Part shown: piece by piece, positions 9,100 through 24,003 of the stretch
Position numbering within the stretch: the stretch's first letter is position 1
Layout: every line of letters begins with the position of its first letter
Assembly: GCA_002787235.1 (NCBI GenBank)
Contig: PCWG01000042.1
Location: 227,713 to 274,096 of the forward strand
Source of the DNA: Nitrospinae bacterium CG11_big_fil_rev_8_21_14_0_20_45_15
Lineage (GTDB): Bacteria; Nitrospinota; Nitrospinia; Nitrospinales; VA-1
DNA length: 46,384 nucleotides
Direction of reading: 5' to 3'
Program-made: the position numbers and the translations under genes
Notes under the pieces: model-generated
What the model was told of the DNA's origin: nothing
What the model saw: the letters and a program-made list of their open reading frames with translations, nothing else
Database searches by the model: none

Positions 9100-10239
9100 A
9101 TGAAAGTCGCCATCGTCCACGATTGGTTGACAGGCATGCGTGGCGGTGAGAAATGTCTTGAAGTTTTCGTGCGTCTCTTTCCACACGCAGACTTGTATAC
9201 CCTTCTGCATATCAAAAATTCAGTCTCACCTGAGATTGAAAATAGAAAAATAGAAGTTTCCTTTCTTCAGAATCTACCCTTCATTCAGTCCCGATACCGC
9301 TATTACCTCCCATTAATGCCCTTTGCGATATCAGGATTTGATTTGCGCGGTTACGACCTGGTGCTCAGTAGCAGTCATTGCGTTGCCAAGGCCGTTCGAG
9401 TGTCTCCCAAAACCCTGCATGTTTGTTATTGTCACACACCCATGCGGTATATCTGGGATCAGTTTGACCAGTACTTTGCCCGACCGGGATCACCCAAGTT
9501 GACTTCGCTTGTTATGAAATTGATAGCACCCTCATTGCGACGGTGGGATGTGAGGATGAACCGGCACGTCGATTTTTTCATTGCCAACTCCCAACATGTT
9601 CAAAAACGTATCAAGAAATATTATGGACGAGAGTCCAGCGTTATCTATCCTCCTGTCGATACAGATTATTTCAAGCCGCAAAAAAAAGAGAGAGGCGATT
9701 TTTTCCTTATTCTATCTGCATTCGCTCCCTACAAGAGAGTTGATTTAGCGGTTGAAGCCTTCAATAAACTGGGGTATCCTCTGGTGGTTATTGGGACAGG
9801 GCAGGATGAGGAGAGATTGCGCCGCCTTGCCAATAAAAACATCCAGTTTAAAGGATGGTTGGATGCAGAAGAAATCCGTTCCTATCTGGGACGTTGCAGA
9901 GCCTTGATTTTCCCCGGTGAAGAAGACTTTGGAATCACTCCTGTCGAAGCGCAGGCAATGGGGCGACCCGTTATCGCTTATGGCAAAGGCGGGGCTCTGG
10001 AAACAGTGGTTGCCAGTTCTGGTAGAGTGGTTGGAGAGCCTCTCAGCAGATCTGCGACAGGTGTTTTTTTCGACGAACCGACGGTCAACGCCTTAGTGCA
10101 GGCTGTGTCCTATTTTGAAACGATAGAATCCTCTTTTGATCCCGATCTCATTCGGCAACACGCCCAGAAATTTGATACAAGTATATTTGCCGATCACATC
10201 AAGAAATTTATCGATCAACAACTTTCTACTTCAACGTAA
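9100..10239 (+). CDS. GT4 family glycosyltransferase
   Basis: 379 aa, GT-B fold retaining glycosyltransferase. The N-terminal acceptor domain has VHDWLTGMRGGEKCLEVF, the opening seen in WbaZ/mannosyltransferase-like GT4 enzymes. The C-terminal nucleotide-sugar site has the EX7E motif (GEEDFGITPVEAQAMGRPVI) and the hinge SAFAPYKRVDLAVEAF. It probably adds a mannose-like sugar to a lipid-linked surface glycan; the sugar is inference. Its stop codon abuts the start codon of the sugar-phosphate transferase gene (TAAATG), so the two are translationally coupled. Confidence 0.9.
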   Translation: MKVAIVHDWLTGMRGGEKCLEVFVRLFPHADLYTLLHIKNSVSPEIENRKIEVSFLQNLPFIQSRYRYYLPLMPFAISGFDLRGYDLVLSSSHCVAKAVRVSPKTLHVCYCHTPMRYIWDQFDQYFARPGSPKLTSLVMKLIAPSLRRWDVRMNRHVDFFIANSQHVQKRIKKYYGRESSVIYPPVDTDYFKPQKKERGDFFLILSAFAPYKRVDLAVEAFNKLGYPLVVIGTGQDEERLRRLANKNIQFKGWLDAEEIRSYLGRCRALIFPGEEDFGITPVEAQAMGRPVIAYGKGGALETVVASSGRVVGEPLSRSATGVFFDEPTVNALVQAVSYFETIESSFDPDLIRQHAQKFDTSIFADHIKKFIDQQLSTST

Positions 10240-11632
10240 ATGCTGAAGAAACACAGTCAGCTATTTCTATCGGGTCTGATTGCATCGGACAGCCTGGTAG
10301 TTCTGTTTTCATGGTTTGCCGCCTATTGGCTTCGCATCAACCTGCCTTGGATTCCACTCACTAGCGGAGAACCGTTGTTTGAGGCCTATGCATGGTCTGC
10401 AATACCGGTTTTGATTGTGTTCATGATCAATGCAAGAAACTTTGGGTTGTATCGTCCTCTTCGAGGGAAAAGTTTTTTGTCGGAATTGACGACCTTGGTG
10501 AAAGTGGTGCTCTTTACCGGACTCATGCTCACCGCACTGGCATTTTTTTATCGTGGGGATTCATTTTCACGTGTGATCGCCGCGTATTTCCTGATTTTAG
10601 TGCTGACACTTTTAACAACATCCCATTGGTGCATCCGTGTTTTTTTGATCCATCTCAGAAAGAAGGGCATCAACTTGAGACATGTGTTGATTCTGGGAGT
10701 GGGTGAATTAGCGCAGACACTTTCGGACAAGCTGAACCTTCATCCTGAATACGGTTTCAATGTAGTTGGATTTTTGCAAGAGGCGCAAAGTACCCCTGTT
10801 GCTACGATAGAGGCACAAAAGATTTTGGGGAAAACACTGGATGTCTCCAGAATCATAAAGGACTATGGCATCGACCAGGTTTTCATAGCATTTCCTCTCA
10901 AAGCTCAGGGCGAGATTGAAAACGTTTTGAGCTTGTTGACAGAAGAAACAGTTACGATAAAAGTTGTCCCTGATCTGATGCAGTTTGTGAATCTTCAGTC
11001 CGGTGTCGAAGAGTTGGATGGCCTGCCCATAATCAGCATCAGTGACACCCCCCTGTATGGCTGGAATCTGGTGATTAAAAGAATCATTGATCTGATATTT
11101 TCTGCTGTGGCAATTTTCTTATTGGCTCCATTGATGGCAGTGATTGCAATCATTATTAAACTGGAATCTCCTGGCCCCATATTTTACCGCCAGGAAAGAG
11201 AAGGATTGGATCGCAGGGTTTTTGACATGCTAAAATTCAGATCTATGAAGATAGATGCCGAATCAAGTTCAGGACCTGTATGGGCCAGTAAAAGTGATGA
11301 TCGTCGAACTCGCATCGGCGCATTTTTAAGATCCTCCAGTTTGGATGAATTGCCGCAACTTTATAACGTCTTCAAAGGCGAAATGAGTCTGGTGGGTCCA
11401 CGACCTGAACGACCTGTTTTTATAGATGATTTTAAAAAGACTATCCCGCATTATATGTTGCGCCTGAAAATGAAAGCAGGCATTACCGGGTGGGCTCAGG
11501 TCAATGGTTGGCGGGGAAATACTTCTCTGGAAAAACGGATTGAATTTGATCTTTATTATATTCGAAACTGGTCTCTGGCATTCGATTTCAAAATTCTTTT
11601 CATGACCCTCTGGAAGGGTTTTATAAATCCCC

Positions 11633-18167: not shown

Positions 18168-20330
18168 TTAACTTAAACAACATTTTTTAAATTTTTTCCC
18201 GCTTCCACATGGGCAGTCGTCATTTCGCCCTACTTTTTTTGATTTACTAGTTACTGTTTTGAAATTAAACTTTTCCCCTCTTTTTACTTTTTGTGGTTTC
18301 GGCAAATTTTTTACTAAATGATCCATTTCATTTGATTGAACCCAATCATATTCATTATTAACACCGAATCTTAATCTTGGACTCGCTTGTCCAATGCAGA
18401 TCCCAAACCATGAGCTTGCTTTTTGTATGTACTTTCTTCTCTTGCAGTGATTTTCTAAGCGAGGTACTGCTATAGAGACATCATCGTCATTGAGGTGAAG
18501 AGTTAGGCCAGTTGCTCCATCATCTAAAAGAAATGTAAAATCATGAGGTTTGCCATCTTTATCTTTCAGTTTGATCATTTGAGAAATTCCATCGTTTATT
18601 GTTTCAATGGCATTTCCTGAAAGGGCAAGTAACATAAAACCTAAGTCTATTGTTGCAGGATGGTCTAGAATATTTATATCTTTTATTATTTGATCGAATT
18701 CGGTGTCTTTATATTTAGTTAAAATTCCCTCAGGAACATGTGATCCATGCAATCCTTCACGTCTTACCATCATTGCAAGGTCAAGGTCTGCGCATAAATC
18801 TCCTCCGAGAATCATCATGTTTTGGCCTTCATCCATATATAAATTATTTTTCAGATGATATGAAAGAATGGTCAGCTCATGTGAAGAGATAATTTTTTTG
18901 CCGTAAGATGTTCTCCTGTTTATATAGCTCAAAAAATGTAGAGGCGATTGTAGCATTTCCGTTATGACATCAAGGAAAAACACGTCCATTACGAATGGAA
19001 CTTTTATATATTTTGTTTCCTGATAAACTAGAAATTGCATTGCTTGGAAGGAAAGAGCTGGGTAGTGATCAGACACGACACAAAAAGGATATATTTCTTT
19101 GTACTCTCGTTTAATATTTAACTCATTTCCTTTTTTATCAATGAGCTTATAGTTTTTGTCCGTTAAGAAAGAAGCGCATGAGAAAGCTTGATCGTAAGCT
19201 TCTTGAACTGCTTTCTTGAAGTCTTCCTTGAGACAATTATCATTGCCTTTTCGTGCAGCAATAGTAAGCTTTTTTGATTTTGCCTGTAGAAGTATTACTC
19301 TATTTCCAAATACAACCAGAACGTCTATTTCCCCAACTTGGTCGCCTTTAGAGTCGAAGATATCGATATTCATATACACGCGATGTTCGCCAAAAACGAG
19401 CTTCAGTCTTTCAGCAGAAAACTCCTCAGTAAACTCGCCTCTATGCTGCATGGCACTAGGTTGGTATTGCTTATCTGCACAAAACCAGAAAAATGGTGTT
19501 TCATACAGTGCTTCCACCAAATTATAATTCTGGAATAATAAAAAAGTATCTTCTTGAAGTTTAATTATTGGATATGCCTTTTTAGGGTTAAAGTCATCTA
19601 AAGAATTGAATCCATGCATATCCATAGGTGCTACAAAGGACTCAATAATTTGCCTCGATACATCAATGTTAATATTTGAGGAACCGCTAACTTCTTCAGT
19701 TGTAAATTTAAAACTTTCAAGAAAATTCCACTCATTTGGATGTTGATTAGCGAACTGGTTTAAATTGTAATTAATTTTTTTGTTCTGCAGTAATTGTATT
19801 GATGTCACAATATCAAAAGCTTGCTGAGCAGAAAAACCTTTGTTTTCCAGTAACCAATCATTATCTTTTTTGTTTTTGATTTTCGAAAGGTCTCTATATT
19901 GAAATTGATATGCAGATTCCCCGCCATAGAAAATTGCCTCCCTCAAAACATTGCCTTTTTTAAACGGGTTAAAATTTTGATCACCAATTTTACAGGGATC
20001 AAATAATTCCTTTAGCGGCACCATAGATTCATGAATTTCTTTTAGTAGTGAATCGGTCCTGACAATGTATTTTTGGAGGATATCGGGCGAAGGGAGCTCT
20101 GTGCTTAAAGGTTTTTTACATAAGAGCCCGATGAGGGTTGATATTTCAGTTCTCACCAATTTATCCTTTGAGTACTGCGTTAAAATATTATCTGAGGTTA
20201 TTGTGTCAGAATATTTAATCGTATTGTCTCTAAAACAAAAGTGTGCAATCGCATGAACGTATCCTGGAGAAACGCATAGTTCCGCTAGTTCTGAAAATAT
20301 TTCAGATTCTTTTCTAATTTCCAAGTTCAA
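18168..20330 (-). CDS. PD-(D/E)XK/NERD-like nuclease-domain protein with C-terminal SEC-C motif
   Basis: 720 aa, AT-rich, not recognised as a named gene. A helical N-terminal half of about 290 residues has no motif I know. A NERD/restriction-endonuclease-like core follows: EFTEEFSAERL (candidate Glu about 303), VGEIDVLVVFGNRVILLQAK (Asp about 336, Q-x-K about 349-351), then SKKLTIAARKG. These are the D...(D/E/Q)xK ligands of the PD-(D/E)XK fold. The last 19 residues are a SEC-C zinc motif, GRNDDCPCGSGKKFKKCC. The start is TTG with GGAG 9 nt upstream (20340-20343); no ATG exists before residue 103 in the open frame. Base composition and flanking repeats suggest transfer. A stand-alone defence or DNA-processing role is inference. 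Confidence 0.75.
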   Translation of the reverse strand: MNLEIRKESEIFSELAELCVSPGYVHAIAHFCFRDNTIKYSDTITSDNILTQYSKDKLVRTEISTLIGLLCKKPLSTELPSPDILQKYIVRTDSLLKEIHESMVPLKELFDPCKIGDQNFNPFKKGNVLREAIFYGGESAYQFQYRDLSKIKNKKDNDWLLENKGFSAQQAFDIVTSIQLLQNKKINYNLNQFANQHPNEWNFLESFKFTTEEVSGSSNINIDVSRQIIESFVAPMDMHGFNSLDDFNPKKAYPIIKLQEDTFLLFQNYNLVEALYETPFFWFCADKQYQPSAMQHRGEFTEEFSAERLKLVFGEHRVYMNIDIFDSKGDQVGEIDVLVVFGNRVILLQAKSKKLTIAARKGNDNCLKEDFKKAVQEAYDQAFSCASFLTDKNYKLIDKKGNELNIKREYKEIYPFCVVSDHYPALSFQAMQFLVYQETKYIKVPFVMDVFFLDVITEMLQSPLHFLSYINRRTSYGKKIISSHELTILSYHLKNNLYMDEGQNMMILGGDLCADLDLAMMVRREGLHGSHVPEGILTKYKDTEFDQIIKDINILDHPATIDLGFMLLALSGNAIETINDGISQMIKLKDKDGKPHDFTFLLDDGATGLTLHLNDDDVSIAVPRLENHCKRRKYIQKASSWFGICIGQASPRLRFGVNNEYDWVQSNEMDHLVKNLPKPQKVKRGEKFNFKTVTSKSKKVGRNDDCPCGSGKKFKKCCLS

Positions 20331-21203: not shown

Positions 21204-23045
21204 TTACATATCCTGAATGAATTTGCGTGCGAAGGAGCGGACTTCTTTTCCGTTCAATACATGGAACTGGCGTAGTTTCTCCACCATCTGATTGGAGAAG
21301 CGTTTGAGCGGAATATGGATGATGCGTTTTTTGTAATGTTTCGCCAGCTTGCGCCAGCTCATGCGCGGCGGGGTGGGGGAGACGACGGTGACGTGAAATT
21401 CGCGGGAATGAAAAAACGCGGCTTCGAGTAATTTTTCTTCGAGCGTTGTTGCGAGCCGCATTCGGGGGTCTTCCCAGATGTTGGGGATGGGACGCGGCGG
21501 AAAGATCGTCATGCATCCGCCATAGGTTGATTGGCCGATTCCGGGGCCGACCATTTTATCCATGTATTCGGTCGCGAAGAAGCAGAGGGTCGATTCTTCT
21601 TCGTGCTCGGCGTACCAGGTCTGCCGCCAGGTGTATTGCTCTGGCGCGGGTTCTTCGTCGAATATGAACACGACGATTTCGACTTTGCCGCGCGATGCGG
21701 GAATCTCTTTGACGTAGATGTCTCCGGTGTACCAGTGGCGCAGGGTGTCGCGAAGGTCGATGCCGTCTTTCACGGAGGTGGTGAATTTTTCCGTGCGGGC
21801 GAGATCGTTGCTCAAAAGTATTTTCGATTGTTCGCGCACATGGGAATTGAAGTTTTCGATTTTGTCATCTTCCGGCGGCCAGGAGCATTGCCCGTAAGGG
21901 TCCCAGTTGTATTTCCAGCGATCCTGTTTTTCGTAGTCCGGTTCCGGTTTCAGGTCGAGCGACCGCCATTCCATATCGTCTTCCGACAAGCGGTTCTTCG
22001 CTTGTACGATTTCATCCTCTTCACTGAGAATCGCCTCATCCATTCCGAGTGTGATGGTTTCCAGCGATCCGGCTCCGTTGTCCTGAAACGGGTAGTCGCG
22101 TGCGGTTTCCAGCACGGATATCGCAAAGGCATCGCCGCCCACTTGTTTGGCGGTGAGGACCAGTGTGTAGAGATCGGGCGTCAGGCGATGTTCCATCAGT
22201 GTCAGGTTGCGCAGATACTGCAATTGTGCTTGCAGGGCGGTGGCGGTCAGGCCGTGGTATTTCAAATTGCGTTTTTCTATGTGACGTGTTCGCGCTCGGA
22301 GAAGTATTTCCTTGATGCCGTCTATGGCAACGCCACGGTCGGAAAGCAGGTCCTGCCGGTTCTTTTCATAAAGATGAGTTACGAATGGGAATTCGGACAG
22401 GGCGAAAAAGAGTGATTTTTTTTCGACGCTGAACAACTCGGGTAGCGCGTCTAGTTCTTGCGGCGATTCGTATTTCAGTCGCTCGGTATACGCCTCTTTG
22501 ATCCAGGGCCAGTCGAGAATGGAGCAGATGAAAACGATGCGCTTGTAGTCCATCTCCAGCCGGTGGAGTTGAAAGGCCATCCATCGTGCCCGTTTGTCAT
22601 GCAAACCCTCTGCAGGGGGACGTTGTTGACTGAGGAGCAGGGCGGCATTGAATTTTTCCATCGACAAACCATTCAATGCAAAGGGATCGGGCCAGTGTAC
22701 TTTCCGTGGTTCGTAAACGGAGGCACTCCAGTCTATGAATTCACGTCGGATGCCTTCCTGCATGGCGATGCGCAAGCCCATGATGATGGGTTGGCAGGGA
22801 TCGACAGGGACATAGTTCATGGCACCGTCGGGCTCGTTCACCGCACAAATGCTGATGTGCGGGAGCATGTTGATTCCACGTTCGACACCGGCCTGAAATT
22901 CTGGCGGCAGGGCGACGGCGATGCAATCTGGCGAATGCGCGAGCAGTCGCCTGCGCACTTCACGGGCGTAGGTTCCCGAGCCGTGGATGACGGGGAGGAG
23001 GGTGATCCTGTCCCCGAGCTTGAAAATTTCGTTTGATTCCGTCAT
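21204..23045 (-). CDS. TraB/ChaN-like protein partnered with a MoxR AAA+ ATPase
   Basis: 613 aa from ATG 23045; the open frame runs to 23195 inside the ATPase gene, but that extension is unlikely. The N-terminal third looks like the TraB/ChaN (Tiki-like) fold: LLPVIHGSGTYAREVRRRLL, PDCIAVALPPEF, then VPVDPCQPIIMGLRIAMQEG followed by FIDW, and MAFQLHRLEMDYKRIVFIC. The middle is helical. The C-terminal ~130 residues alternate strands and helices (KVEIVVFIFDEE, STLCFFATEYMDK, a Gly-rich VGPGIGQSTYGG, FHVTVVSPTPP), which I do not recognise. No signal peptide or TM. It follows the ATPase gene after 13 nt, so it is an operon. It is GC-rich. Function is unknown; the fold assignment is tentative. Confidence 0.6.
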   Translation of the reverse strand: MTESNEIFKLGDRITLLPVIHGSGTYAREVRRRLLAHSPDCIAVALPPEFQAGVERGINMLPHISICAVNEPDGAMNYVPVDPCQPIIMGLRIAMQEGIRREFIDWSASVYEPRKVHWPDPFALNGLSMEKFNAALLLSQQRPPAEGLHDKRARWMAFQLHRLEMDYKRIVFICSILDWPWIKEAYTERLKYESPQELDALPELFSVEKKSLFFALSEFPFVTHLYEKNRQDLLSDRGVAIDGIKEILLRARTRHIEKRNLKYHGLTATALQAQLQYLRNLTLMEHRLTPDLYTLVLTAKQVGGDAFAISVLETARDYPFQDNGAGSLETITLGMDEAILSEEDEIVQAKNRLSEDDMEWRSLDLKPEPDYEKQDRWKYNWDPYGQCSWPPEDDKIENFNSHVREQSKILLSNDLARTEKFTTSVKDGIDLRDTLRHWYTGDIYVKEIPASRGKVEIVVFIFDEEPAPEQYTWRQTWYAEHEEESTLCFFATEYMDKMVGPGIGQSTYGGCMTIFPPRPIPNIWEDPRMRLATTLEEKLLEAAFFHSREFHVTVVSPTPPRMSWRKLAKHYKKRIIHIPLKRFSNQMVEKLRQFHVLNGKEVRSFARKFIQDM

Positions 23046-23058
23046 GAGAGAAGCGCGT

Positions 23059-24003
23059 TCAACGGTCGCTGTCCGGGTGCAGTGGACTGTCTTCGCCAAA
23101 GAAGAAGTCGCCCAAACCCATGGGCATTCTTTCGTTGCCCAGAGCGCGTCGTTTTCCATCGGCCAGTGCTTCAAGATCGAGAGCTTCTTCGCCAAGTACC
23201 CGGCTCACCGCTTCCTGCCAGTAGGAGTCTTTGCTGAGCGGATGGGTCTTGTCCTGACGGATGCGTTTGATGGCATATTGCAGAATGTGCATGCCGTCGC
23301 GCGGTGAAAAATCGAGATCGAGCTGATGCGCACGTTGTAAAAATTCGACCGTCATATTCAATAAATCATCTTCCGCGAAGGGGAGGTGGTATTTAAGAAT
23401 TGCCAGCTCATCCCTTAAGTTGGGCATCGACAATTGCAGGGTCGGTTGCAGTCGGGATAAAATATAGTCGGGAATCTCGAAGGTGGATTCGTCGCTATTC
23501 ATGGTAACGCAGGCGCGGAACTCGCGATGAGCGTGAATTTGAATGCCCGCAATGATAGACTCGACATAGCGACGGTGATCGAAAAGCGGTGCCATGGAGG
23601 CCCAGCTTTTTTCGTTCATTCGGTTGCCTTCGTCCAGAATGCAGATTCCGCCCGTCACCATGGCACTCACCAGAGGCGAGGCGTGATATGATATCTTGCC
23701 AGATTCGGCAAGCACGGGGGTGATCAACAAATCTTCCGGTCGGGTATCGCTGGTGCATTGAAAAATATACAGAGGTTGCTTGCGTTCCAAAGCGGCAGAC
23801 ATGGCCAGAGTCGTCTTGCCAATACCGGGCATGCCTACGATGCGGGGGGTGAGCGGCAGATCTTTTTCCGCAACCACCAACCAGCAGGCGAGTATTTGTT
23901 TGAGGACTTCTTCCTGACCGATCCATTCAGGCTTTGTTGCATCGGCGCGGCTGAGGTTCACCTCGACACCGTCCAGGTTTACTTTTCTTTGATTATCAGT
24001 CAA
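23059..24003 (-). CDS. MoxR-type AAA+ ATPase
   Basis: 314 aa. Walker A GMPGIGKT at residues 57-64 and Walker B ICILDE at 120-125, followed by GNRMNEKSW (the MoxR family has DEINRAPP here). Sensor 1 Asn is in [11 protein letters not shown] (about 169) and the arginine finger in ILSRLQP (about 184). A helical lid ends the protein. MoxR proteins are chaperone-like remodelers that usually act with VWA-domain partners; none is nearby, and the only partner in the operon is the TraB-like protein. It starts with TTG preceded by GGAG (24012-24015) at 8 nt, divergent from the precorrin-2 dehydrogenase gene. Confidence 0.88.

Follow-up and report, generated by a model that had tools for sequence, protein, structure and literature searches.

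A pair of genes in the analysed window (the whole stretch of 46,384 nucleotides) encodes an AAA+ ATPase (A) and a 613-aa partner protein (B) and is real, widely distributed and apparently undescribed. Our preferred reading, to which we assign a probability of about 0.55, is that A and B together make up an AAA+ remodelling machine of two components, with B as the adaptor that takes the place of a VWA protein. MoxR-type ATPases have been described as acting mostly via VWA partners, and MoxR genes, for which seven subfamilies have been listed, are usually found near a VWA gene (PMC3893208). Literature searches for DUF5682, for MoxR with TraB and for yehMPQ gave nothing informative.

Organization of the locus

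The pair is organized as follows.

23059-24003, minus strand: gene A, AAA+ ATPase of 314 aa, TTG start with a GGAG Shine-Dalgarno sequence upstream
23046-23058, minus strand: gap of 13 nt between the stop of A and the start of B
21204-23045, minus strand: gene B, 613-aa partner, ATG start at 23045

Both reading frames were open at the positions reported in the preliminary description, on the same strand and 13 nt apart. The two genes had also been called GC-rich, which is true relative to the window (0.527 for A and 0.540 for B versus 0.456) and no further than that. The flanking genes, one uracil-DNA-glycosylase-like and the other CysG-N-like, are both on the opposite strand, indicating that A and B form an isolated two-gene unit. 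No VWA gene adjoins the pair in the neighbourhood inspected in the window, in agreement with the first reading of the locus. The host of the window is a draft genome of 3.37 Mb, whose nearest named relative, judged by B, is a Nitrospinaceae MAG (90% identity).

A 720-aa reading frame on the minus strand (18168-20330), about 0.9 kb from the pair, has a GC content of 0.35, compared to 0.46 for the window. Its product has a nuclease-related domain of the NERD family (E 8.6e-7) and, at the C terminus, a SEC-C motif (E 1.6e-8); it is possibly a defence gene. Between the TruA-like gene and the uracil-DNA-glycosylase-like gene, the 90%-identical relative (L038) has a DUF2971 gene in place of this frame, and the site therefore looks like an insertion hotspot.

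Distribution and co-occurrence

At least nine phyla contain the pair. A single scan of genome contigs detected 49 relatives of B, 43 of which had A at their locus, indicating that the pairing is not due to chance. These relatives of B belonged to the Nitrospinota, Nitrospirota, Planctomycetota, Latescibacterota, Omnitrophota, Gemmatimonadota, Fibrobacterota and Tectomicrobia, and to one deltaproteobacterium. The pair, with a short gap, is also carried by the Chlamydiota plasmid Neochlamydia pS13. In five planctomycete loci B stood alone and A was located elsewhere in the genome (67-69% identity). Both genes are normally present in single copy, and the searches of phages and viral contigs yielded no relatives of A or B. 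Recurrent pairing without a VWA gene, which the preliminary description had named as an observation that would support its reading, was seen in many phyla.

Among 77 genomes of the window's group, 52 contained both genes, 4 contained B only, 1 contained A only and 20 contained neither (Fisher p 1e-13, kinship ignored). All five discordant genomes were less than 90% complete, and in three of the four genomes with B only, the start of B was cut off. The second sample comprised 147 genomes drawn around a genome unrelated to that of the window and included one B-positive genome from the first group. B was present in 18 of these genomes, 17 of them new. A was detected in 16 of the 17 new B-positive genomes, the exception being 71% complete, and in 0 of 19 B-negative genomes. 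No sampled genome that was at least 90% complete carried just one of the two genes.

In most B-positive genomes of the second sample, A and B were unlinked; in one genome (G136) they were on the same contig but about 490 kb apart. The near-perfect co-occurrence, which includes many genomes with unlinked A and B, indicates more than co-inheritance of an operon, and the separate retention of unlinked A and B in several lineages argues against hitch-hiking. Homologues that never co-occur, which the preliminary description had named as evidence against the pair, were thus the opposite of what was found.

Incomplete copies were seen in a few genomes. G003, a single contig with 86% completeness, contains an incomplete A and an incomplete B 1.5 Mb apart (C1:794718 and 2265063), the result of either decay or sequencing error. 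In G026 (L040), the full gene is followed after ~360 nt by a second, broken version of the sequence for the final ~60 residues of B (C56:164087-164263), and in G022 a broken copy of this part was on a separate contig (C438:4054-4251).

The ATPase

The following motifs were assigned to A.

Residues 57-64: Walker A, GMPGIGKT
Residues 120-125: Walker B, ICILDE
N169: sensor 1
R184: arginine-finger candidate
Residues 235-237: sensor-2-like RDG
Tail: acidic, 'DFFF..DPLHPD'

The Walker A, Walker B, sensor 1 and arginine-finger assignments had been made correctly at first reading, including the positions given for the two Walker motifs. The key residues of these four motifs were invariant or nearly so in 26 homologues from many phyla.

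The best Pfam match of A was AAA_5 (E 4.3e-16, above the cut-off). Against AAA_3, the family of MoxR proper, the protein scored 26.1 bits, just under the cut-off of 27, and the six-frame genome search gave 28.1 bits. The same genome encodes three true MoxR paralogues, each scoring over 200 bits. When a profile of the 26 A sequences was compared with the PDB, the nearest solved relatives were midasin, CbbQ and NorQ, and the closest small ones were 5c3c, 6l1q, 9qhd and 9qh4. In the AAA+ tree, all A sequences formed a single clade (support 100/99), which was nearest to CbbQ/NorQ (support 86/81, with long branches). The A clade was apart from YehL and the DUF5682-linked ATPases, which formed well-supported separate clades, a placement to which the warning of long branches also applies. 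Together, the Pfam, PDB profile and tree results indicate that A, judged from its sequence, is a member of the wider helix-2-insert/MoxR assemblage, with no one subfamily confirmed. The MoxR label originally given to A needs qualification: it suits the wider assemblage, and the two scores against MoxR proper fall on either side of the cut-off.

The partner protein

Protein B was divided into three parts, the last of which contains three conserved motifs.

22476-23045, minus strand: residues 1-190, TraB/DUF5682-like domain (hhalign, Foldseek, alignment)
21936-22475, minus strand: residues 191-370, middle region, mostly helical (AlphaFold2 model)
21207-21935, minus strand: residues 371-613, C-terminal domain, antiparallel strands, then helices and strands in alternation
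Residues 426-436: motif KDGIDxRxTLR
Residues 476-487: motif TWYAEHEEESTL
Residues 500-510: motif GPGIGxxxYGG

B had no match in Pfam, NCBIfam, PADLOC or PHROGs, and its TraB-type domain was not detected by Pfam: the score against the DUF5682 profile (PF18934) was 11.6 bits, below the cut-off of 26, and covered profile positions 1-83 only. With hhalign, residues 1-112 aligned with four true DUF5682 proteins (E 1.4e-7) and residues 16-189 with E. coli YehM (E 0.0012). The homology to DUF5682/YehM ended after the N-terminal third. The AlphaFold2 model of B, built on a 39-sequence alignment, had a mean pLDDT of 83.8, and its top viral-model match in Foldseek was a Marseillevirus TraB family protein (E 2.4e-5, probability 1.00). 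The TraB-like fold originally proposed for B, whose absence would have refuted the preliminary description by its own terms, was thus recovered in the first ~190 residues by both the structure search and hhalign, but the catalytic-type motifs were not kept.

TraB/TIKI/ChaN proteins carry two GX2H motifs and a glutamate. In the DUF5682 set, R9-H10, E34 and G240/H243 were invariant. In B, the first GX2H has become PxxH (P in 36/37, H in 34/38), the position of the TraB-type glutamate is occupied by P, A, C or D, and the second GX2H site reads C-S-x-x-D-W-P-W without a conserved histidine. The replacement of residues that DUF5682 keeps suggests that the front of B is a worn-down TraB-type domain that is probably noncatalytic.

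Conservation in B is highest in the C-terminal domain. Among 13 diverse members, the mean pairwise identity was 51% for this domain and 60% for its core, compared to 34% for the TraB-like part. The family-wide forms of the three motifs are KDGxDxRxTxR, TWYAEHxxEST and GPGIxxxxYGG, and the invariant residues of the domain include D427, D430, R432, R436, W477, E480, H481, E484 and S485. The Gly-rich stretch VGPGIGQSTYGG that had been pointed out in the C-terminal domain is real and is located at residues 499-510; G500, P501, G502, Y508, G509 and G510 were invariant in 39 homologues.

The C-terminal domain matched no Pfam family, and neither the whole model of B nor the C-terminal domain folded alone had a significant fold match in the PDB. 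Its description as unassigned therefore stands. Of the two kinds of C-terminal fold named beforehand as supporting the first reading, VWA-like or novel, the VWA-like one did not hold, since the 50 best PDB fold matches of each model included no VWA protein and the sequence of the domain contained no MIDAS DxSxS motif. For the domain folded alone, the best matches all had E values of 0.099 or worse and TM-scores of about 0.1-0.35. Many of these nonsignificant matches were to short-Argonaute PIWI, uS11, RuvC and the retroviral integrase core, which we take to be RNase H-like, and at such E values they give a hint only. In the predicted model, the order of strands and helices fits an RNase H-like fold; at the position corresponding to the first RNase H aspartate, family members have D, E, A or H. 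Motifs of known enzyme classes were not detected in B.

Ribonuclease_T2 was considered and dropped. Of the 39 members, 9 gave a weak match to this family, with a best E value of 0.00056, but the window's B and the ten other members rescanned with coordinates gave none, and no such fold appeared in the structure searches.

VWA genes and neighbouring genes

No VWA gene was linked to the pair in any lineage looked at. In 22 pair-bearing genomes, the VWA_2 matches listed lay either on a different contig or tens of kilobases from the pair, and in the genome of the window the nearest among the matches listed was about 124 kb off. VWA genes were present elsewhere in 21 of the 22 genomes, indicating that a VWA partner in trans is possible; one pair-bearing draft genome (G101) had no VWA_2 match. 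The five planctomycetes with A apart from B had no VWA gene around A. One MIDAS-like reading frame was located about 1.7 kb from A at a single locus in a single genome (L163). The CbbQ/MoxR relatives of A on plasmids had an adjoining VWA gene in all four cases inspected.

The neighbourhoods of the pair varied and consisted mostly of housekeeping genes, with no third gene conserved across many loci. LigA, amidohydrolase, acetyltransferase and TerB-like neighbours were lineage-specific. A TerB-family gene (E 2.2e-8) directly follows B in four planctomycete loci (L066, at 10066-10431, L071, L072 and L083).

Comparison with known systems

The E. coli yehLMPQ/DUF5682 (PF18934) system consists of the AAA+ protein YehL, the DUF5682 protein YehM, the VWA protein YehP and the SWIM zinc finger protein YehQ. 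The A-B pair resembles it in having an AAA+ gene followed by a gene for a protein that starts with a TraB-like domain, and the N-terminal homology of B to DUF5682/YehM extends over about 110-180 residues. In contrast to yehLMPQ, the pair has just two genes, without a VWA or SWIM gene, and its neighbours vary. B has lost the GX2H/Glu/GX2H motifs that DUF5682 keeps, the C-terminal two thirds of B are unrelated to YehM, and A is outside the YehL clade in a tree with long branches. The pair coexists with a true DUF5682 gene in 4 of 24 pair-bearing genomes.

The planctomycetes G112, G121, G122 (L095, L121, L122 and L123) and G109 contain a DUF5682 system in addition to the A-B pair. In several of them, the DUF5682 gene is preceded by an AAA+ gene and followed by another conserved gene.

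CbbQ and NorQ, which belong to the CGN (CbbQ/GvpN/NorQ) subfamily and act with CbbO and NorD, are close solved relatives of A, and the two arrangements share the feature of one dedicated partner. Unlike CbbO and NorD, B has no VWA domain or MIDAS motif. B has the fold of TraB/ChaN-type proteins in its first ~190 residues but matches them in the N-terminal third alone, and their catalytic-type motifs are lost. In NorQD, the VWA partner inserts a finger into the AAA+ pore, and in McrBC the pore of the AAA+ ring likewise receives a finger of McrC, a partner without a VWA domain (PMC13036017). Unlike in McrBC, B has no recognised nuclease domain, and no sequence relation between B and McrC was found. 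On present evidence, the pair is not a reduced VWA system.

Proposed function and alternatives

CbbQ, NorQ and midasin are remodelling ATPases. Because A and B are kept together across phyla even when far apart, they look like halves of one machine. A would form a hexameric ring of the helix-2-insert kind, like CbbQ, NorQ and midasin, and B would bind this ring as a dedicated partner, in the position of the VWA protein in NorQD and CbbQO. The region of B around residues 380-450, which is ultra-conserved and modelled with low pLDDT, would become ordered on the ring, judging from these two features alone. The TraB-like front, probably catalytically dead, would be a second contact, for a client, which the ATP-driven movement of the ring would remodel or mature. 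The single copy, slow evolution and housekeeping neighbours point to a core cellular client rather than conflict with phages. The C-terminal domain may replace the VWA partner in function, as had been suggested, but its invariant E, H, D and R residues could equally serve in catalysis instead. The lack of linkage between A and B in many genomes is less typical of a strictly stoichiometric complex and counts against a machine, and the VWA genes in 21 of 22 genomes, with a possible partner in trans, count against a VWA-free one.

B may itself be an enzyme with a C-terminal active site that A loads, gates or regulates, as McrB does for McrC. The high conservation of the C-terminal domain, its many invariant polar residues, a strand and helix order that fits an RNase H-like fold and the many RNase H-like proteins among the nonsignificant PDB matches (E >= 0.099) are consistent with this reading, which we nevertheless regard as possible but doubtful. 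Its weak points are the lack of a significant fold match (TM-scores of about 0.1-0.35), the variation of the first RNase H aspartate position (D/E/A/H) and the failure to find a motif of any known enzyme class in B. McrBC provides a precedent for a non-VWA partner (PMC13036017). We consider it rather unlikely that the pair is an old shared machine composed of a NorQ/midasin-type ring and a B protein with a new enzymatic or nucleic-acid-binding C-terminal domain, possibly of RNase H-like topology, with the front as a dead TraB-type binding module.

The homology of the first 112-190 residues of B to DUF5682/YehM (hhalign E 1.4e-7 and 1.2e-3), the pairing of both the B and the DUF5682 families with an AAA+ ATPase and the presence of VWA genes elsewhere in the genomes could also be explained if the pair were a reduced or derived YehL-DUF5682-VWA-SWIM system (yehLMPQ) whose VWA component was lost or is supplied from elsewhere. 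This explanation is unlikely, since A is nearer to CbbQ/NorQ than to YehL (86/81, long branches), the homology of B stops past the N-terminal third, a true DUF5682 gene coexists with the pair in 4 of 24 genomes and no lineage looked at has a VWA gene beside the pair. An anti-phage or other conflict system, comparable to the VMAP/iSTAND MoxR-VWA ternary systems, is very improbable. Conflict systems built from MoxR-type ATPases and variable partners do exist (PMC7159879), the low-GC NERD/SEC-C gene is about 0.9 kb away and a Neochlamydia plasmid carries the pair. However, PADLOC gave no meaningful match, no effector turnover or fusions were seen, the genes are absent from the searched phages and viral contigs, and the pair is single copy and slowly evolving with mostly conserved housekeeping neighbours.

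With A and B as a two-component remodelling machine still the preferred reading, the pair is a broadly distributed, obligate exception to the VWA partnership of MoxR-type ATPases. Its partner protein is covered by no Pfam or NCBIfam family, and the pair can therefore be used to ask what a ring of this kind requires of its partner. The pair marks a slowly evolving, uncharacterised function common to nitrite oxidisers, planctomycetes and several uncultured phyla.
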